This document shows, piece by piece, positions 17,142 to 62,268 of a stretch of 62,268 nucleotides of DNA (position 1 is its first letter; each line of letters begins with the position of its first letter). Made by a program: the position numbers and the translations under genes. The notes under the pieces were generated by a model. That model had not been told where the DNA came from. It searched no databases and was given only the letters and a program-made list of their open reading frames with translations. The stretch covers positions 1 through 62,268 of the forward strand of contig JAOAFE010000011.1 of the NCBI GenBank assembly GCA_026416455.1, read 5' to 3'. The stretch comes from Syntrophales bacterium. GTDB taxonomy: Bacteria > Desulfobacterota > Syntrophia > Syntrophales > UBA8958.

Positions 17142-17708
17142 ATGATTTGTGAAGTTATATGGCATGGTCGTGGGGGACAAGGTGTAGTTCTCGCCGCTCA
17201 AATGCTCGCGGAGGCAGCCTACAGACATGGATTTCGTGGCGTAACCGCCACACCCACCTTCGGGCCGGAAAGGAGAGGTGCCCCCGTCATCGCCTCAAAT
17301 AGAATATCACCCGAACCGATTCGTACCTTTGCTCAGATTAGAAAAGCGGATTTGGTGGTCGTTCTTGATGAATCCCTTTTCCACGCTGTAGACATTTTAG
17401 GGCGTTTGAAGGATACGGGGGTCCTCATCATAAACACCAACGATGCGGCTCGTTATGTCCTTCCGGAGTCGATCCATCTATTTACAGTCGACGCCGTAGG
17501 CATAGCCCAGCGTCACCACCTTATGCGAGAAGGTGCCCCACTGGTCAACGTGCCCATGTTGGGGGCTGTTGCCCGGGCTTCGGAACTGGTGACCATAGAG
17601 GATCTCGCCCAGGTAGTGAAAAGAAAAATAGGGGATGACCATCTGTCCCAAAATCTGGCCGCCCTTGAAGAGGCCTATTCGGGAACGACAATGAGGAAAC
17701 ATGGATAA
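17142..17708 (+). CDS. porG: 2-oxoacid (pyruvate):ferredoxin oxidoreductase gamma subunit
   Basis: Gamma subunit of 188 residues (family about 180-190). It shows IWHGRGGQGVVLAAQMLAEA at 6-25 and TATPTFGPERRGAPVIASNR near 37-56, the CoA-contacting signature of this subunit. First of four tightly packed genes in the order gamma, delta, alpha, beta, as in archaeal-type pyruvate synthases. It overlaps the delta gene by 8 bases. The complex interconverts pyruvate + CoA and acetyl-CoA + CO2 using ferredoxin. Confidence 0.92.
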   Translation: MICEVIWHGRGGQGVVLAAQMLAEAAYRHGFRGVTATPTFGPERRGAPVIASNRISPEPIRTFAQIRKADLVVVLDESLFHAVDILGRLKDTGVLIINTNDAARYVLPESIHLFTVDAVGIAQRHHLMREGAPLVNVPMLGAVARASELVTIEDLAQVVKRKIGDDHLSQNLAALEEAYSGTTMRKHG

Positions 17709-17994
17709 AACAAAGGATCCAAATATTTCGGCCATGTGTACCCTCGCCGTGGGGGAAGCGGGAAGAACGGGAGATTGGCGCAGCTTTCGCCCCGTTATCG
17801 ACCATGGGAAATGTATCCCATCTCAGAAGGGTAGATCCGCTTGTTTTCTCTGCTGGCTATACTGTCCAGAAGGAGTCGTGAGAGCCGAAATCCCCATTAC
17901 CATTGACATGGAATACTGTAAAGGCTGCGGCATCTGTGCCGAGGAATGCCCTGCCAAGGCTATTACGATGGTAAAAGAGGAAGGCCATGAGTAG
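17701..17994 (+). CDS. porD: 2-oxoacid:ferredoxin oxidoreductase delta subunit (2x[4Fe-4S])
   Basis: Ferredoxin-like subunit of 97 residues that relays electrons from the thiamine-diphosphate site to free ferredoxin. The second cluster motif, CKGCGICAEECPAKAI near residue 75, is canonical. The first is unusual: a lone cysteine in GKCIPSQKGRSACFLCWLYC is followed by 10 residues and then CFLCWLYCP, so the usual CxxC start is expanded to C-x10-C. Four cysteines are still present. It overlaps both neighbours by 8 bases, indicating coupled translation. Confidence 0.9.
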   Translation: MDKTKDPNISAMCTLAVGEAGRTGDWRSFRPVIDHGKCIPSQKGRSACFLCWLYCPEGVVRAEIPITIDMEYCKGCGICAEECPAKAITMVKEEGHE

Positions 17995-19195
17995 GGTAGA
18001 AATCATGACCGGTAATCAGGCAGCTGCCCTGGGGGCCCGTCTGGCGCGGGTACAGGTGGTAGCCGCCTACCCTATTACGCCCCAGACGTCACTGACGGAA
18101 ACCCTTGCCCAGTTGATAGAAAGTGGGGAGATGCAAGCAGAATACATCCGCGTCGATGGGGAACACAGTGCCCTGACCGTATGTATTGCCGCTTCCACCA
18201 TTGGAGCCCGGGCTTTTACCGCCACGAGTGCCAACGGCCTCCTCTATATGCATGAACAGATACATTGGGCGGCCGGATCACGCCTGCCCATCGTCATGTG
18301 CTGTGTTAACCGCGGGGTAGGGGCACCATGGACAATCTTCAATGACCAGCAAGATTCCATCTCTCAGCGAGACACAGGCTGGATTCAACTTTACTGCCGT
18401 GACAACCAAGAGATAATAGATACGGTCATCCAGGCCTTTCGCATTGCCGAGACGATATACTGTCCTGTCATGGTGTGTTACGATGGCTTTGTCCTTTCCC
18501 ACACCCTCATGCCCGTTGAGATACCGGAAGAAGAGAAGGTCGATGCGTTTCTCCCCCCGTACCGCCCCCATACGATCCTAGACGACACCAATCCCAGAAC
18601 GATCAATCCAGTTATGTTCGCCGATTTGAGGGCGAATGCGGAAGGTATCCTCTGTGATGGCTACATGGAGATACGCTACAAGCTCGAATATGCCCTTAAA
18701 GGTGCATTAAAAACGATTCAGGATGTCTCCGATGAGTATGCCTTGGTCTTTGGGCGCGATCACGGAGGGCTCATCTGGGAATACAAAACTTCAGATGCCG
18801 AGGTTATCCTTACGGGGATGGGCTCTATCGCCACCGAAGCGACCATAGCTGCAGACATATTGAGAGAAAAAGGTATTCCCGCTGGCGTAGTAGGTATCCG
18901 AGCCTACCGTCCATTTCCCACGGAAGCCCTCATTCGGGCCTTGAAGAGGGCCCGTTCCATTCATTGCTTGGAAAAGGCCGTAAGTTACGGATTTGCCGGA
19001 CCCGTTTATACCGATCTAAGAGCCGCTCTTTACGGCAGCGAATGCGATGCCCAAATGCAAGATTATATAACCTCTTTAGGTGGGCGAGATATTCAACCAT
19101 CGACCATTGCCGAGGTAGTTCTAAATAGGATAAAAAGTGATGCCTTTGACGGTCGTTTCCGTGAGCCCATCTGGATCAATTGCCGCACGGAGTGA
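17987..19195 (+). CDS. porA: Pyruvate-type 2-oxoacid:ferredoxin oxidoreductase alpha subunit
   Basis: Alpha subunit of 402 residues. It begins with MTGNQAAALGARLARVQVVA and AAYPITPQTSLTETLAQLIE, the pyrimidine-binding domain signature, then YIRVDGEHSALTVCIAAS near 62-80 and the CoA/transketolase-like C-terminal domain (PAGVVGIRAYRPFPTEALIR near 300). Length and order fit pyruvate rather than 2-oxoglutarate enzymes. Three bases separate it from the beta gene. Confidence 0.93.
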   Translation: MSRVEIMTGNQAAALGARLARVQVVAAYPITPQTSLTETLAQLIESGEMQAEYIRVDGEHSALTVCIAASTIGARAFTATSANGLLYMHEQIHWAAGSRLPIVMCCVNRGVGAPWTIFNDQQDSISQRDTGWIQLYCRDNQEIIDTVIQAFRIAETIYCPVMVCYDGFVLSHTLMPVEIPEEEKVDAFLPPYRPHTILDDTNPRTINPVMFADLRANAEGILCDGYMEIRYKLEYALKGALKTIQDVSDEYALVFGRDHGGLIWEYKTSDAEVILTGMGSIATEATIAADILREKGIPAGVVGIRAYRPFPTEALIRALKRARSIHCLEKAVSYGFAGPVYTDLRAALYGSECDAQMQDYITSLGGRDIQPSTIAEVVLNRIKSDAFDGRFREPIWINCRTE

Positions 19196-54995: not shown

Positions 54996-56243
54996 CTATT
55001 GGTTCATGGAATCTAGAAATTGCTGATTAGTCTCTGTCCGCTTAATCTTATCGATAATGAATTCCATAGCATCAATGGGGTTCATTTCCTGTAGGATACG
55101 CCTTAAAATCCAAATGCGGTTTAGATTCTGCTTTGGAATCAAGAGTTCTTCTTTCCTTGTACCGGAACGTATGAGGTCGAAAGCCGGGAAAATACGGCGG
55201 TCAGCTATACGGCGGTCCAAGTGCAATTCCATATTGCCCGTACCTTTGAACTCCTCGAAAATGACCTCGTCCATCCTACTTCCCGTATCTATCAAGGCCG
55301 TAGAAATGATGGTTAGAGATCCGCCATTTTCTATGTTTCGCGCCGCTCCGAAAAATCTCTTTGGTTTGTGCAAGGCATTGGAATCCACCCCCCCTGATAA
55401 CACCTTGCCGCTCGGTGGAACGACGGCATTGTAAGCTCTCGCTAATCTTGTTATGCTGTCCAGCAAAATTACGACGTCTCTTTTATGCTCTACTAGCCTT
55501 TTCGCCTTTTCGATTACCATCTCGGCCACCTGTACATGTCTGGTTGCCGGTTCATCAAAAGTCGAAGAAATAACCTCTCCCTTTACGCTCCGCTGCATGT
55601 CAGTAACCTCTTCTGGCCGTTCATCGATAAGGAGGACAATTAAGATCACCTCTGGATGATTCCGCTCTATGCTGTGAGCCACATCTTGAAGCAACATGGT
55701 TTTGCCCGCGCGGGGAGGAGAAACAATGAGCGCTCTCTGTCCTTTACCTATGGGCGTGAACAGGTCCATAATGCGGGTGGACAGATTTTCAGGATCCGAT
55801 TCGAGATTCAATTTTTCATTCGGATATAGCGGGGTTAGGTTATCGAAGAGAATCTTGTCCCTGGCCGCCTCTGGCGGCTCAAAGTTTACCGTATCCACTT
55901 TTAGGAGGGCGAAATACTTCTCTCCCTCCTTGGGAGGTCGTACTTCACCTGTTATCGTATCACCCGTCCGCAAATTGAATCTTCTGATCTGAGATGGAGA
56001 TACGTAAATGTCATCAGGACTGGGTAGATAGTTATAATCTCCCGCTCGAAGGAAACCGAATCCTTCCGGCAGTATCTCCAATACTCCGGATGCGGAGATG
56101 ACTTCATTCTTCTCCGCCTGGGCTTGCAGAATGGAAAAGATAAGTTCCTGTCTTCTTAATCCACTAGCGCCTTGAACGTTGAGTTCTTTGGCCAGCTCAG
56201 TTAGTTCACTGATAGGCATGCGTTTGATTTCTTCAATGTTCAT
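54996..56243 (-). CDS. rho: Transcription termination factor Rho
   Basis: Hexameric RNA helicase of 415 residues. N-terminal Rho_N helices ([20 protein letters not shown]), the cold-shock-like RNA-binding domain ([20 protein letters not shown] near 65-84), Walker [17 protein letters not shown] near 175, Walker B region [17 protein letters not shown] near 260 and the Q/R loops are intact. It ends untranslated transcripts. A 232-base upstream region holds its promoter and leader. Confidence 0.97.
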
Positions 56244-57023: not shown

Positions 57024-58487
57024 TTAATTTCCCCAGGGATTTTTTCCTTTACACCTATCCAATTTGGGATCCATGGAAGGTAAGATCTTAGCGGCCGGCA
57101 CCAGCCACATGGGTCCTGCACTGGAAGTCCCCTGGAACCAATAGTAGGGTGGGATCGTCATGGACTGCTTCTGTTCTTCCGGCGGCACATATTCCGTAAC
57201 ACCCAGTGGTTGAATGGTTTTGTGATCGCAAGCTCGCATTTTTACAAGCTTTCCATTCGCATATCTGAACACGTCCCCCTCCCACACCTTGATTATCTTT
57301 TCCGGATCCGTGCTTTTCGCCCTCTCTATTACGCTAAGGAGCCAATACGTTATCTGTCCATACAGTCCGATCGCACCAGAGCCATGTTCGAATAGGCGAC
57401 TATTGTATGGGGGAGTCTTCCATTTCTTATGCCATAGCTCATTCCACGCCTTATAAAAACTGACAGAGGGAGGATAGTTGGTAAACGAATACGGCATATC
57501 GTAGACATCTATATGGATCAGCCCCTTCGTGCCTTCCACCCCTATCTCATGTAAGAAATTAGGCTCGTCCATAAATAAATTGGCGAAGGGGATGGTAATA
57601 CCCATTTGCCTGGCCTGCTTTAAAAGATTAGCCGCATCCGGTATCCAGTCTCCCGTATATACCACTTCCGCCCCGGAGGCCTTTATCTTGGTCAGGTATG
57701 GCGCAAAATCGGTCAGAAAGAGCTTGTGGTAATCTTCCCCTACAATTTGGGCTTCGGGATAGTACATCTTTAAACCCTTCTTAAAGGCCTCGGCCATATC
57801 ACGACCAAAAGAATAATCCTGGCAGAGAATATAAAATTTCTTTTCCTTTTTCCTAATCTGGCCAAAGTAATAGGCCATACCAACCCCAATCTGTTCAGTT
57901 GTGGGGGAGGGCATGAAAGAATACCGACCGAAATTGGTGGCATCCTGGAGTTCGTCCGAGAGGGCTCCTTCGTTTACCGAAATAACTTTGTACTTATTCC
58001 CTACCTCGTTGATGATCTTCATGAGATGGCTTCCCGAGGTACCCATCAGGACATGTACCTTATCTTGCAGTACTAACCGCTCGCATACTTTCTTGCAAAC
58101 ATCTGTCTTTGATTGATGGTCGGCGAATATTACTTCGATGAGCTTCTTTTTCCCATCAACCCAAATTCCTCCCCGTTTGTTGATGTCGTGGGCCGCAAAC
58201 CTAATGGGAGTGAGATGAATAGGACCGTTCAGGGCTGCCGGTCCTGAAAACACGTTCACATAACCGATCTTTATCGTATCCCCCGTGGGTGGCGTATAAT
58301 TTGCGGGATCGAAGTCCGACACATCAGCCATCTTGGAGATATCGACAAATGCCCTTGGTTTATCCCAATCCTCCCCGTATGGAACCTCCTTTACAACCTC
58401 TTTTTTCTTGGCCCCAAAAGCCAGCCCGGTGGCCAGAAAGAGGACAAGAAAAACCACCAACCATTTAAACCAACCTTTTTTTGTCAT
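57024..58487 (-). CDS. ABC-type (branched-chain amino acid-like) substrate-binding protein 1
   Basis: Periplasmic Peripla_BP_6/LivK-type receptor of 487 residues. The ATG at 58485-58487 with GGAGGG upstream begins a signal peptide (KWLVVFLVLFLATGLAFG). Mature core: DTIKIGYVNVFSGPAALNG near 60-78 and IRKKEKKFYILCQDYSFGRD near 207-226, which recurs almost unchanged in the paralogue at 60.1 kb. No permease or ATPase gene is in view. Companion genes are an acyl-CoA ligase and a CoA-transferase, so an organic acid ligand (aromatic or fatty) is more likely than an amino acid. This is inference. Confidence 0.88.
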   Translation of the reverse strand: MTKKGWFKWLVVFLVLFLATGLAFGAKKKEVVKEVPYGEDWDKPRAFVDISKMADVSDFDPANYTPPTGDTIKIGYVNVFSGPAALNGPIHLTPIRFAAHDINKRGGIWVDGKKKLIEVIFADHQSKTDVCKKVCERLVLQDKVHVLMGTSGSHLMKIINEVGNKYKVISVNEGALSDELQDATNFGRYSFMPSPTTEQIGVGMAYYFGQIRKKEKKFYILCQDYSFGRDMAEAFKKGLKMYYPEAQIVGEDYHKLFLTDFAPYLTKIKASGAEVVYTGDWIPDAANLLKQARQMGITIPFANLFMDEPNFLHEIGVEGTKGLIHIDVYDMPYSFTNYPPSVSFYKAWNELWHKKWKTPPYNSRLFEHGSGAIGLYGQITYWLLSVIERAKSTDPEKIIKVWEGDVFRYANGKLVKMRACDHKTIQPLGVTEYVPPEEQKQSMTIPPYYWFQGTSSAGPMWLVPAAKILPSMDPKLDRCKGKNPWGN

Positions 58488-58514
58488 GGTCTTCCCTCCT
58501 TCAATCAAACAAAT

Positions 58515-60074
58515 CTACCGGGTCTCTTTTTCCCTTTCCCTCAACGCCTCCTCGCGTAACACGGTTTTAAGCACTTTCTGCATTGCATTTTTGGGCAACG
58601 ACGTCCTAAATTCAACTAAAGCCGGCTTTTTGTAGCTCGCCAGACGATCTTTACAATACGAGATGATTTCATCTCCCGTTGCCATCTCTCCTTCCTTCAA
58701 CACGATCACGGCCTTGACAATTTCCCCCCAGTAATCATCGGGGACACCAATTACTGCCGCTTCCTTTATTTTGGGATGCTGAAGCAAAACCGCCTCTATT
58801 TCAGCAGGATAGATATTCTCTCCCCCTCGGATAATCATATCCTTTTTACGTCCTTTGAGATAGATATAACCGTCCTCATCCATGTACGCGAGGTCTCCCG
58901 TATGGAGCCATCCGGACACAATAGTTTCTCTCGTGGCCTCCTCGTTTTGCCAATAACCCTTCATGACTTTCGGTCCTCGGGCCACAATTTCTCCCACTTC
59001 TCCTCGTGGAAGCTCTTCTCCTTTATCATCCACAATCTTTGCCTCGCTTCCCGGTATGCACCTCCCAACACTGGAGAGTCGTAGCTTCTTCTTCTCTACA
59101 ATACCATCGTCACCTATGAGTTCATGATCCTCCGGGGGTAACACGGAAATGAGCCCCGTCGTTTCCGTCATGCCGTAGAAATTAGTAAACTGAACCGATA
59201 GGGATTGGGTTGCCCGCAATAAAAGCCCTACCGGCATAGGCGAAGCCCCATACCCGATATGCCGGAGCGATCCAGTATGCCTTCGGCAAAAATCAGGGTG
59301 ATCGAGAACGGCTTGCAACATGGTAGGGACGAGATATGTCGTCTGTATTTTTTCCTTTTCCACTACCGCTAGAAACGTACCTGGATCGAAGGCGGGGAGA
59401 AACACCATCGTATCACCCCGATACATGGGCAGAATAACACTCGAGATTCCAGCGATGTGGTACATGGGCACATTGACAAGAATGTTCCCCGGTTGGAACG
59501 TGTAAACATCGAAAAGAGGGGTAAGAAGGTTGTCATGGGTGATCATCGCCCCTTTCGGCCATCCTGTCGTACCACTTGTATAGATTATGCATGCCACATC
59601 TTCACCGGCTCGCCAGAGGGACGGAAAAAGAGTTTCACCGTAAGAGTCCAAAATCCATTCGTACTCAATCATGCCAGCTACGGTTCCCCCTAAAGAGATG
59701 CAACTTTCAATGGATGGAACAGAGGATCGGATGGAATTTATCATCTCACCATACCGGGCTCCGCAGATTACGGATTTAGGTGAGCAATTTGAGAGAATAT
59801 ACGCCGTTTCTTCTGCCCGGAGGCGGTAATTTATGGTCACAAGAACCGCTCCAACTTTTTCCACGGCGAAAACCATTTCAGGGAATTCGAGGCAATTAAC
59901 CTGAAAGATGGCCACTCGGTCGCCCGGTTTTACTCCTGAAGACACCAAAAAACGTGCTAAAGCCCCGGCTCTTCTATTTACCTCACCGTAGGTCAGCTTC
60001 CTTTCACCTTCAACGGCACAGACTTTTGTACTAAACACCTCACATGTTTTCTCTATCACCTTCGCCAGGTTCAT
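58515..60074 (-). CDS. AMP-dependent acyl-CoA synthetase
   Basis: ANL ligase of 519 residues. ATP loop YTSGTTGWPKGAMITHDNL near 165-183, NFYGMTETTGL near 300, GWLHTGDLAYMDEDGYIYLK near 387-406 and GRKKDMIIRGGENIYPAEIE near 407-426 are all intact. The C-terminal block reads LPKNAMQKVLKTVLREEAL: the catalytic lysine is kept but the usual glycine before it is glutamine. The substrate is probably a medium or long carboxylic acid and cannot be fixed from sequence. It is placed between the two binding-protein genes, 27 bases before the first and behind a terminator after the second. Confidence 0.92.
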   Translation of the reverse strand: MNLAKVIEKTCEVFSTKVCAVEGERKLTYGEVNRRAGALARFLVSSGVKPGDRVAIFQVNCLEFPEMVFAVEKVGAVLVTINYRLRAEETAYILSNCSPKSVICGARYGEMINSIRSSVPSIESCISLGGTVAGMIEYEWILDSYGETLFPSLWRAGEDVACIIYTSGTTGWPKGAMITHDNLLTPLFDVYTFQPGNILVNVPMYHIAGISSVILPMYRGDTMVFLPAFDPGTFLAVVEKEKIQTTYLVPTMLQAVLDHPDFCRRHTGSLRHIGYGASPMPVGLLLRATQSLSVQFTNFYGMTETTGLISVLPPEDHELIGDDGIVEKKKLRLSSVGRCIPGSEAKIVDDKGEELPRGEVGEIVARGPKVMKGYWQNEEATRETIVSGWLHTGDLAYMDEDGYIYLKGRKKDMIIRGGENIYPAEIEAVLLQHPKIKEAAVIGVPDDYWGEIVKAVIVLKEGEMATGDEIISYCKDRLASYKKPALVEFRTSLPKNAMQKVLKTVLREEALREREKETR

Positions 60075-60140: not shown

Positions 60141-61637
60141 TCAATCACCCCAAGCATTCTTTCCTTTGCATCGATCTAATTTCTCGTCCATCCAGGGGAG
60201 TACCTTTTCTGCCGGTACGTTCCATGAGGGACCTGGACCGCTCGCATTTTTGTACCAATAGAAAGGTGGCATATTAAACGATACCTTCTGCTCCTCCGGG
60301 GGGACAAATTCGGCAATACGGAATCCCTGAATGGCCTTGTGGTCACAAGCCCTCATTTTGTAGAGACGGCCGTTCACCATCTGATATACATCATTTTCCC
60401 AAATCTTTATTATCTTCTCCGGGTCCGTCGATTTCGCCCTTTCCAGGACACTAAGCAACCAGTAGGTACCACCTATCCACTGGCCGAGTGTACCAAAGGG
60501 ATGCTCATAAAGTGGTTTATTGTAAGGTGCCGATTTGAACTTTTTCCATTGATCGTTCCAAGCTCGATAGTACCTAATCATTGCCTCGCTGTTGAACGCC
60601 GCGCCGGCATGGTCAAAGTGCTTAACATTCACCAGGCCTTTGGTGCCTTCTATACCCACTTCGGTCAAGAAATCTGGGTTGTCCATAAAAAGGTTGGCAA
60701 AGGGAATGGTTACCCCCATCTGCCTCGACTGTTTTAAAAGATTGGTGGCGTCGGGCATCCAGTCACCCGTCCAAACAACTTCGGCTCCTGAGGCTTTTAT
60801 TTTCGTTATGTACGGTGCAAAGTCCGTTATGAACAGCTTGTGATAATCTTCTCCTACGATTTCCGCCTCCGGATAGTATTCTTTGAGCCCCATCTTGAAG
60901 CCCGTCGCCATATCCCGACCGAAGGAATAATCCTGGCAGAGGATGTAGAATTTCTTTTCCTTTTTCCTAATTTGCCCATAATAGTAGGCCATAGCGCGAC
61001 CGACAGAAAAAGTAGAGGCTTCTGCCATGAAGGCATAACGGCCGAAATTCTCCGCATTCTGGAGTTCGTCCGAAAGGGCACCAACGTTGAGCACTATCAC
61101 CTTGTATTTATTCCCCACATCGTTGGCCACCTTCATCAAATTGCTACCCGAGGTACCGATGATAAAGTTTACCTTTTCTTCTAAGGCCATACGTTCGGCA
61201 ATCTTTTTGGCCTGATCTTGCTTAGACATGGTGTCAGCTTTGTAAATAGCGATTTTCTTTTTCTTCCCGTCAACCCAAATGCCACCCCTTTGGTTGTAAT
61301 CGTAAACGGGGAAACTTACACATGCCCAACCCAGTTCGCCGTTGGCGGCAGCAGGTCCCGAATGGGGCCAGAAAACGGCTATTTTTATGACATCACCTTC
61401 CGGATTCTTCCAATTGGCTGGATCCCAACCGTCCATATTCGCCATTTTAAAAGCATCGAACTTAGCGTTCGGCTTGGCCCAGTTTTCAAAAGGTTCTGAA
61501 TATTTGGGAAGTTTGGTCTCCTTTTTCGCCACACCTTTCTTTTCTTCTTGCTTTGCCGACAAAGCCGGGAATGCAAGAATGAACAGGGCAAAGATAACCA
61601 TCATGCCCCACAGAAAAAAGATTTTTCCCTTCTTCAT
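60141..61637 (-). CDS. ABC-type (branched-chain amino acid-like) substrate-binding protein 2
   Basis: Paralogue of the gene at 57 kb, 498 residues, with signal peptide (IFFLWGMMVIFALFILAFPA) and a lysine-rich mature start. Core: VIKIAVFWPHSGPAAANGEL near 70-90, the shared IRKKEKKFYILCQDYSFGRD near 217-236 and VWTGDWMPDATNLLKQSRQM near 285. The ligand loops differ from the first copy (for example around residues 75-90), suggesting divided specificity after duplication. It follows the CoA-transferase gene by 11 bases, so acid capture and activation are probably co-expressed. Confidence 0.88.
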   Translation of the reverse strand: MKKGKIFFLWGMMVIFALFILAFPALSAKQEEKKGVAKKETKLPKYSEPFENWAKPNAKFDAFKMANMDGWDPANWKNPEGDVIKIAVFWPHSGPAAANGELGWACVSFPVYDYNQRGGIWVDGKKKKIAIYKADTMSKQDQAKKIAERMALEEKVNFIIGTSGSNLMKVANDVGNKYKVIVLNVGALSDELQNAENFGRYAFMAEASTFSVGRAMAYYYGQIRKKEKKFYILCQDYSFGRDMATGFKMGLKEYYPEAEIVGEDYHKLFITDFAPYITKIKASGAEVVWTGDWMPDATNLLKQSRQMGVTIPFANLFMDNPDFLTEVGIEGTKGLVNVKHFDHAGAAFNSEAMIRYYRAWNDQWKKFKSAPYNKPLYEHPFGTLGQWIGGTYWLLSVLERAKSTDPEKIIKIWENDVYQMVNGRLYKMRACDHKAIQGFRIAEFVPPEEQKVSFNMPPFYWYKNASGPGPSWNVPAEKVLPWMDEKLDRCKGKNAWGD

Positions 61638-61648
61638 GTCTCCTCCTT

Positions 61649-62268
61649 TTACTTTTTTGTTCTTTTCATCAAGTTAGCTATGGTGAGTTCCATGGCGAGT
61701 TCTCGTCCTGCGGACATGGCTGGGGCGAAGCGGCGGATGAAGTCTATTTCTTCATCCGAGGGAGGGGGGGTTACGGATAAGTTTTCCGCCACCTTCAAAT
61801 CCCACGGCACATCCTTACGCACCTCCTCCACCGTCACCCCAGGATGTATCTGCGCCAAATACATCTCCTTCGTCACCGGATCAAACCGAAATACCCCCTT
61901 CGTACTCAACAACATCGTAGGACCCGACCCCGGCGGAAATAAACCACTCCGATCCCGACTATCCCCACCATCCAAATAACCCGGCGACGTCACATAATCC
62001 AACCTCTCCACAAACTCCCCACCCAACATCGTCAACACCGTCCGCTTCGCATAAGAAATAAAATCACACGCCCCACCAGAACCCGTCAACCTCATCGTCG
62101 GCCGATAATAATCCCCTATCACCGTCGTATTCAAATTCCCATACCTGTCCACCTGCCCCACCCCCAAAAAACACACATCCACAAAACCACGATACGTCAT
62201 CGTAAACGTCGAAAATAAATCCGTCGCATAAGACCAACCACGAACCGCATGCGCATCCGCTATATGAT
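61649..62268 (-). CDS. CoA-transferase family I subunit (glutaconate CoA-transferase B-like), 5' partial
   Basis: The frame is open to the window edge; translation upstream of the internal ATG at 62200 gives IADAHAVRGWSYATDLFSTF, so the true start lies outside. About 205 residues are visible: RGFVDVCFLGVGQVDRYGNL, GSGGACDFISYAKRTVLTML and FDPVTKEMYLAQIHPGVTVE are typical of the beta-like subunit of family I transferases (glutaconate, or IpdB-like). The catalytic glutamate would lie upstream. Codon use is extraordinary: the first 160 visible codons end in G or T 153 times, whereas from 61786 onward 36 of the last 45 end in A or C. The protein itself reads normally across the switch. Confidence 0.85.
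   Translation of the reverse strand, partial: HIADAHAVRGWSYATDLFSTFTMTYRGFVDVCFLGVGQVDRYGNLNTTVIGDYYRPTMRLTGSGGACDFISYAKRTVLTMLGGEFVERLDYVTSPGYLDGGDSRDRSGLFPPGSGPTMLLSTKGVFRFDPVTKEMYLAQIHPGVTVEEVRKDVPWDLKVAENLSVTPPPSDEEIDFIRRFAPAMSAGRELAMELTIANLMKRTKK

Follow-up and report, generated by a model that had tools for sequence, protein, structure and literature searches.

Keto-ending codon blocks in duplicated genes of a Syntrophales bacterium: a probable trace of strand-biased gene conversion

The CoA-transferase gene and its codon block

The window analysed here, 62,268 nucleotides in length, is the entire contig JAOAFE010000011.1 (C2 in our contig numbering) from the genome of a Syntrophales bacterium (GCA_026416455.1, here G000), which was assembled as 2.1 Mb in 44 contigs and is 96% complete. 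At the end of the window lies a truncated gene for the beta-type subunit of a CoA-transferase, in which a block of codons ending almost exclusively in the keto bases G or T (a keto block) gives way abruptly to ordinary codon use. The features concerned, including two genes which served as controls, are as follows.

61649..62266, minus strand: CoA-transferase (beta-type subunit) gene, 5' part absent (Pfam CoA_trans PF01144, E=1.3e-15)
61787..62268, minus strand: keto block, 153/160 codons G/T-ended, continuing past the contig end; maximal-scoring segment 61787-62260
61649..61786, minus strand: ordinary 3' end of the CoA-transferase gene, A/C-leaning, inside the genome's normal range
60141..61637, minus strand: control gene, ABC-type branched-chain amino acid/urea-like substrate-binding protein (silent G+T 0.54; NCBIfam PRK15404)
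58515..60074, minus strand: control gene, acyl-CoA synthetase with ordinary codons (silent G+T 0.55; PRK06187)

As the window is a complete contig, its end at 62268 truncates the keto block. Homologues of the CoA-transferase in Syntrophales MAGs are 70-86% identical, and its nearest named relatives are mainly MAGs of the Syntrophaceae and Smithellaceae.

A first-pass annotation of this DNA had counted 153 codons ending in G or T, one in C and six in A among the 160 between the contig edge and 61787, and a recount of the third positions from 62266 down to 61787 gave exactly this result (G94, T59, A6, C1; n=160). With the genome's own 51% of G/T-ended codons as the null rate, the binomial chance of at least 153 of 160 is ~1e-35. 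Codon positions 1 and 2 within the block are ordinary overall, the keto usage extending to first positions only at leucine, which is encoded by TTG or TTA with CTN almost absent, whilst isoleucine is the exception in the keto blocks in that ATA outnumbers ATT. The likelihood-best switch was found between codons 160 and 161, the next codon beginning at 61786, in agreement with the ~61786-61789 given previously; the protein keeps its register across this sharp intragenic edge, as had also been stated.

The annotation went further in describing a reversal of codon choice, with ~36 of the next 45 codons ending in A or C. The leaning itself is real, as the remaining 46 codons of the gene (stop counted) end in C19, A18, G6 and T3, but A/C runs equal to or stronger than this 3' stretch occur in other genes of the genome, which places it in the ordinary tail. 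The supposed reversal is therefore really the end of the keto block, and a switch into a true A/C block was rejected. The claims that the neighbouring genes have mixed third positions and that the block is unlike the rest of the chromosome proved sound: silent G+T is 0.42-0.61 in every other gene of the window, and 40-codon windows covering 831 kb of distinct G000 sequence form a bell curve around ~20 G/T-ended codons together with a separate small mode at 36-40, which consists of the keto blocks.

Three related substrate-binding protein genes, two in the window (57024-58508 and 60141-61637) and one on contig C5 (~17191-18400), are 66-68% identical at the DNA level; these are diverged duplicates with ordinary codons and without the bias.

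Further blocks in the genome and their duplicate copies

A hunt for other keto-ending blocks, as recommended in the first-pass annotation, turned up several elsewhere in the genome. Runs of NNK codons were searched for and refined, followed by a frame-checked scan over the 831 kb of distinct sequence, which gave six or seven keto blocks in five gene families (CoA-transferase, thiolase, HpaB-type, carboxylesterase and MCP). Those outside the window are listed below by contig; additional fragments of keto blocks were found at the ends of C44 and C1.

C1:51-671: carboxylesterase block
C4:~55772-56124: block in the CoA-transferase alpha gene, the natural partner of the window gene
C5:44421-44750: chemotaxis receptor (MCP) block
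C33:72-734: thiolase block
C41:12344-12835: carboxylesterase block
C41:~122726-123913: HpaB-type hydroxylase block, patchier

In all of the G000 keto blocks it is the coding strand that is rich in G/T, and this holds for blocks on the K-richer as well as the K-poorer replication strand, the latter assigned from the skew of genes nearby. The pattern is thus not the ordinary, genome-wide bias of one strand class which the annotation had considered; this was rejected on the neighbours' values of 0.42-0.61 and on a block sign independent of replication strand. Pooled over 896 codons, the blocks favour GCG/GCT for Ala, ACG/ACT for Thr, GTG for Val, GGT/GGG for Gly, CGG/AGG/CGT for Arg and TTG for Leu (CTN 5%), with two-fold codons nearly all ending in G or T and C-ended codons almost missing. 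Ile is encoded by ATA in 59%, ATT in 41% and ATC in 0% of cases, and this usage, together with the preference for G over T, goes beyond a pure keto rule.

The link between keto blocks and duplicates is well supported, with at least four of the five families being multi-copy in this genome. Contigs end at block genes because the assembler met repeats, and the window contig breaks within the CoA-transferase gene, as the block there is probably part of a repeat family. Different loci are connected to shared cores by exact overlaps of 77 bp, such as a de Bruijn assembler run with k=77 typically leaves. In the case of CoA-transferase alpha, unrelated upstream regions on C4 and C14 lead into one core, the first codons being diverged and at least 100 bp of identity following from the block start. 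Similarly, three N-termini (C41, C8, C16) and three C-termini (C41, C1, C3) of HpaB meet one core, two N-termini (C33, C16) and two downstream contexts (C13, C3) converge on the thiolase of C33, and copies of the carboxylesterase lie on C41, C44/C1 and C7. For the MCP block, a search of G000 found no near-identical second copy. Whilst the alpha partner of the window gene has two upstream contexts, the beta-gene core was assembled only once, and a second copy of the exact window block was not seen in the assembled G000 sequence; such a copy would lie in unassembled sequence. A diverged CoA-transferase paralogue (C1:10934-12848; protein 70% identical over the fragment) has ordinary codon use. 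The small contigs C17-C21, C23-C32 and C34-C38 (512-1090 bp) may hold unassembled cores of repeat families.

Four block edges match the edges of paralogue identity within ~30 bp. For the CoA-transferase alpha copies of C4 and C14 the two edges are at most 30 bp apart, and the HpaB copies of C41 and C8 become identical exactly at the block start (C41:123913). At the start of the esterase block the identity edge falls within 15 bp of the block edge, and at its end the identity of the C41 and C1 copies ceases at most 9 bp from the end of the C41 block (C41:12826-12835), beyond which the C41 esterase turns ordinary and the C1 copy remains biased. Copies that resemble each other more closely than they do their orthologues, in tracts of identity with abrupt ends, are the mark of concerted evolution, and are found in C4/C14, C41/C8 and C41/C1, and also in the tuf pairs of closed genomes discussed below.

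The esterase copies also allow the silent changes to be polarised. Passing from the less biased C7 copy to the C41 block, silent third positions show A>G 18, C>T 7, G>A 0 and T>C 0, a ratio of keto-ward to opposite transitions of 25:0 (p=6e-8), and those first- and second-position differences that alter the amino acid also favour A>G (8 v 2). Changes in the blocks are mainly silent and the reading frames are intact. In the CoA-transferase, where the sequences compared are more diverged, the changes look saturated, as C at four-fold sites in relatives has mostly become G in the block, a finding that contradicts pure transition-only hypermutation. From these alignments we read an order of change in which keto-ward transitions would come first and the accumulation of G later.

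tuf and other blocks across the phylum

The tuf gene, which encodes EF-Tu, is the textbook case of a duplicated, gene-converting pair. A constrained search was carried out on 394 genomes of the phylum. Long NNK runs in most genomes other than G000 are the antisense of Ala/Pro/Lys-rich low-complexity tracts and were rejected; for this reason only hits with a recognisable reading frame were kept. The clearest coding-strand blocks among the 394 genomes are mostly in tuf, with few in other genes. Silent G+T of tuf reaches 0.91 in G353, where the adjoining fusA is ordinary, and 0.89 in G267. In two closed genomes the tuf copies are 99.8% identical over 1223 bp (G179; silent G+T 0.83) and 98.8% identical over 1249 bp (G245; silent G+T 0.77), the identity spanning essentially the gene alone and the neighbours being mostly at 0.5-0.65.

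Two-copy tuf genes have a higher silent G+T than single-copy ones (0.66 v 0.54; n=25 and 15; p=0.003, phylogeny ignored), although this comparison should be read with caution as a "single copy" in a fragmented MAG may be a collapsed pair. When only well-assembled genomes are considered the values are 0.64 v 0.49 (n=17 and 7; p=0.0046, phylogeny ignored), and in the same set the excess of tuf over its neighbouring genes is 0.10 for two copies v -0.03 for one (p=0.0045, phylogeny again ignored). About a third of the two-copy pairs (~8/25) have little or no G+T excess. The tuf gene of G000 itself was found once and is ordinary (silent G+T 0.58), and no keto bias was found in E. coli tuf or in the rhsD core. 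A mirror image was observed in G236 (C13:2-1198; L286), in which tuf is A/C-ended with a silent G+T of 0.27 amid ordinary ribosomal-protein neighbours, on a contig that starts at the gene.

Smaller numbers of blocks were found in genes which we name, by our own reading of the sequences, as cheW-like (G158), metV/metF-like (G458), inositol-phosphate-synthase-like (G162) and Orc1/Cdc6-like (G454). The last of these (G454:C66, L276:5722-6951), a moderately keto-biased gene for an AAA protein in a bacterial genome, is possibly on a mobile element; it was tested for a duplicate, no second copy was found, and it therefore counts as a counter-example. Counter-cases of this kind weaken duplication as a necessary and sufficient condition, while the coincidence of edges and the closed-genome cases stand. 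The metV-like gene of G458 (C285, L277:1043-3009) has a silent G+T >0.9 and adjoins an IS3-type transposase pair which is also G/T-rich. In G001, the 7.3-kb contig C96 (L185) looks like a phage and carries a terminase-like gene pair, the first gene of which is strongly G-ended.

Biased gene conversion and its alternatives

We consider that the keto blocks are probably the product of prolonged gene conversion between duplicate copies, in which G/T on the sense strand is favoured. The signature shared by the duplicates suggests that copying drives silent sites to G/T on the coding strand; that copying is the cause of the bias and not the reverse, that the edge at 61786 is a conversion edge, and the nature of the molecular step are all three inferred. 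Under such a scheme the CoA-transferase genes would be present in at least two copies, the cores of which are kept identical by homologous recombination, and each round of copying would resolve silent differences to coding-strand G/T (A to G and C to T, later C/T to G). As purifying selection preserves the protein, only silent positions (the third, and the first at Leu) would drift to saturation, and as the bias would stop where the exchange between copies stops, a sharp edge results at 61786/61787. Among the causes put forward in the first-pass annotation, a strand-biased C-to-T plus A-to-G process filtered by selection comes close to this, with the amendment that the process is tied to recombination between the genome's own duplicates.

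The molecular step is most likely a biased strand exchange, since GT-rich strands give more stable RecA filaments and/or G.T wobbles are tolerated. Recombination between near-identical copies would repeatedly form heteroduplex; with the sense strand as the usual invader, a G/T copy would give G.T wobble pairs and an A/C copy A.C mismatches, and either effect, RecA stability or wobble tolerance, could let the G/T allele win slightly more often per event. RecA and Rad51 favour GT-rich DNA, and the RecA filament is most stable on TGG/GTG/GGT-like strands, a preference established in vitro (PMC3763553). Since G/T is in any case commoner on coding strands, it is mostly the sense strand that would gain, and the reverse could happen now and then, as in the tuf of G236 at 0.27. 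Salmonella MutS recognises A/C and G/T mismatches alike efficiently (PMC5485169), and the lack of bias in E. coli tuf and rhsD may be due to strong mismatch repair and codon selection. We put forward only tentatively a more general, strand-specific drive, in which long-homogenised bacterial duplicates might ratchet their silent sites to sense-strand G/T (in one case A/C) as set by the pairing of the RecA-coated strand and by mismatch tolerance.

Two alternatives deserve consideration, both of them unlikely. R-loops or heavy transcription could expose the coding strand to C->T and A->G damage, with the protein under selection and the link to multiple copies incidental; the bias in G000, which follows the coding strand without exception and is independent of replication strand, and early changes of A>G and C>T would fit with this. 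However, single-copy tuf, presumably equally transcribed, is ordinary, as are the neighbours of biased tuf, mostly ribosomal-protein genes. Moreover, block edges lie at paralogue-identity edges within one transcript, such damage does not yield G over T at four-fold sites, and the G236 tuf carries the opposite sign. The second alternative reverses cause and effect: genes already rich in G/T, through selection or transfer, would recombine better and so their copies would stay identical. The GT preference of RecA/Rad51 (PMC3763553) favours this, and an association by itself gives no direction. Against it, such pure blocks are almost absent from single-copy genes, as seen from the separate mode of 40-codon windows and the few non-tuf cases in 394 genomes, and ordinary homologues of the same family indicate that the composition of the block was newly acquired.

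An assembly artefact, be it wrong joins at repeats or false bases in the blocks, is very improbable. The window does end inside a block, and exact ends of 77 bp are common to several contigs, which is the signature of a k=77 graph; however, errors cannot respect codon positions whilst altering only silent sites, and the blocks of C33 and C41 are internal to their contigs with both edges visible. The assembly chimera suggested in the annotation is not needed, as closed genomes have the same block structure in duplicated tuf. A foreign donor with G/T-ended codon use is more doubtful still. It would account for the sharp intragenic edges and the preserved protein register, but a search for relatives sharing the nucleotide pattern found keto bias in none of 42 homologous loci of the CoA-transferase (protein ~44-86% identical), and the phylum scan shows no such homologue outside duplicates. 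The same donor would have to be invoked for five unrelated families, in sense orientation every time, and the edges match those of the genome's own paralogues. The odd-composition donor was thus rejected, the 42 loci, the genome's own diverged paralogue and other relatives all being ordinary at silent sites; of the recombination with such a donor that had been proposed, the recombination survives, with the genome's own duplicates as partner. Least credible of all is retro-copying, in which edited or error-prone cDNA recombined back into the copies would explain the sense-strand A to G and C to T polarity and the edges inside transcripts, but a reverse transcriptase or diversity-generating retroelement was rejected, as the 96%-complete genome has no match to PF00078 and such an element would alter amino acids, whereas the changes here are mainly silent.

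The biased conversion which we favour also differs from the known systems it resembles. Repeat-induced point mutation (RIP) of fungi strikes both strands and wrecks genes. It too has duplicated DNA as its target and C to T among its changes, but is confined to C:G to T:A changes that inactivate the gene, whereas the keto blocks also show A to G (18, against 7 C>T, in the esterase), on one strand, with frames intact, the protein retained and the copies kept identical. GC-biased gene conversion (gBGC) is likewise linked to recombination and shifts the silent composition of homogenised sequence without benefit to the protein; it favours G and C jointly and is strand-symmetric, whereas here G and C do not both rise, C is nearly eliminated (G94 T59 A6 C1) and G/T is always on the coding strand in G000. 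The blocks have in common with tufA/tufB conversion, for which Salmonella is the model organism (PMC5485169), and with the long-lasting concerted evolution known from prokaryotes (PMC6053082) two near-identical copies, identity limited to the gene and inter-locus homologous recombination. Keto bias is not described in the portions of these two sources cited here and is absent in E. coli tuf; in contrast to tufA/tufB conversion, the G000 blocks saturate silent sites on one strand and involve metabolic genes. The "universal pairing sequences" of RecA/Rad51 (Tracy and Kowalczykowski, cited in PMC3763553) have the same TGG/GTG/GGT preference and coding-strand tendency, although they are, as presented there, an in vitro binding preference, whereas the keto blocks would reflect an evolutionary drive in duplicates. 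Concerted evolution, tuf conversion, gBGC and the GT preference of RecA are therefore already known. An account of sense-strand keto saturation in converting bacterial duplicates was not found in the open literature, which is no proof of novelty, and for biased mismatch outcomes this literature yielded work on gBGC and repair bias.

If true, this would add to biased gene conversion a second form, distinguished by its strand polarity and strong enough to prevail over codon choice even in tuf, a gene presumably expressed at some of the highest levels in the cell. Keto blocks would then be the scar of concerted evolution, making ongoing conversion tracts visible from a single genome, and what the preference of RecA for GT means in vivo could be tested directly. 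Tests of codon usage and selection on duplicated genes may, in that case, be badly misled.
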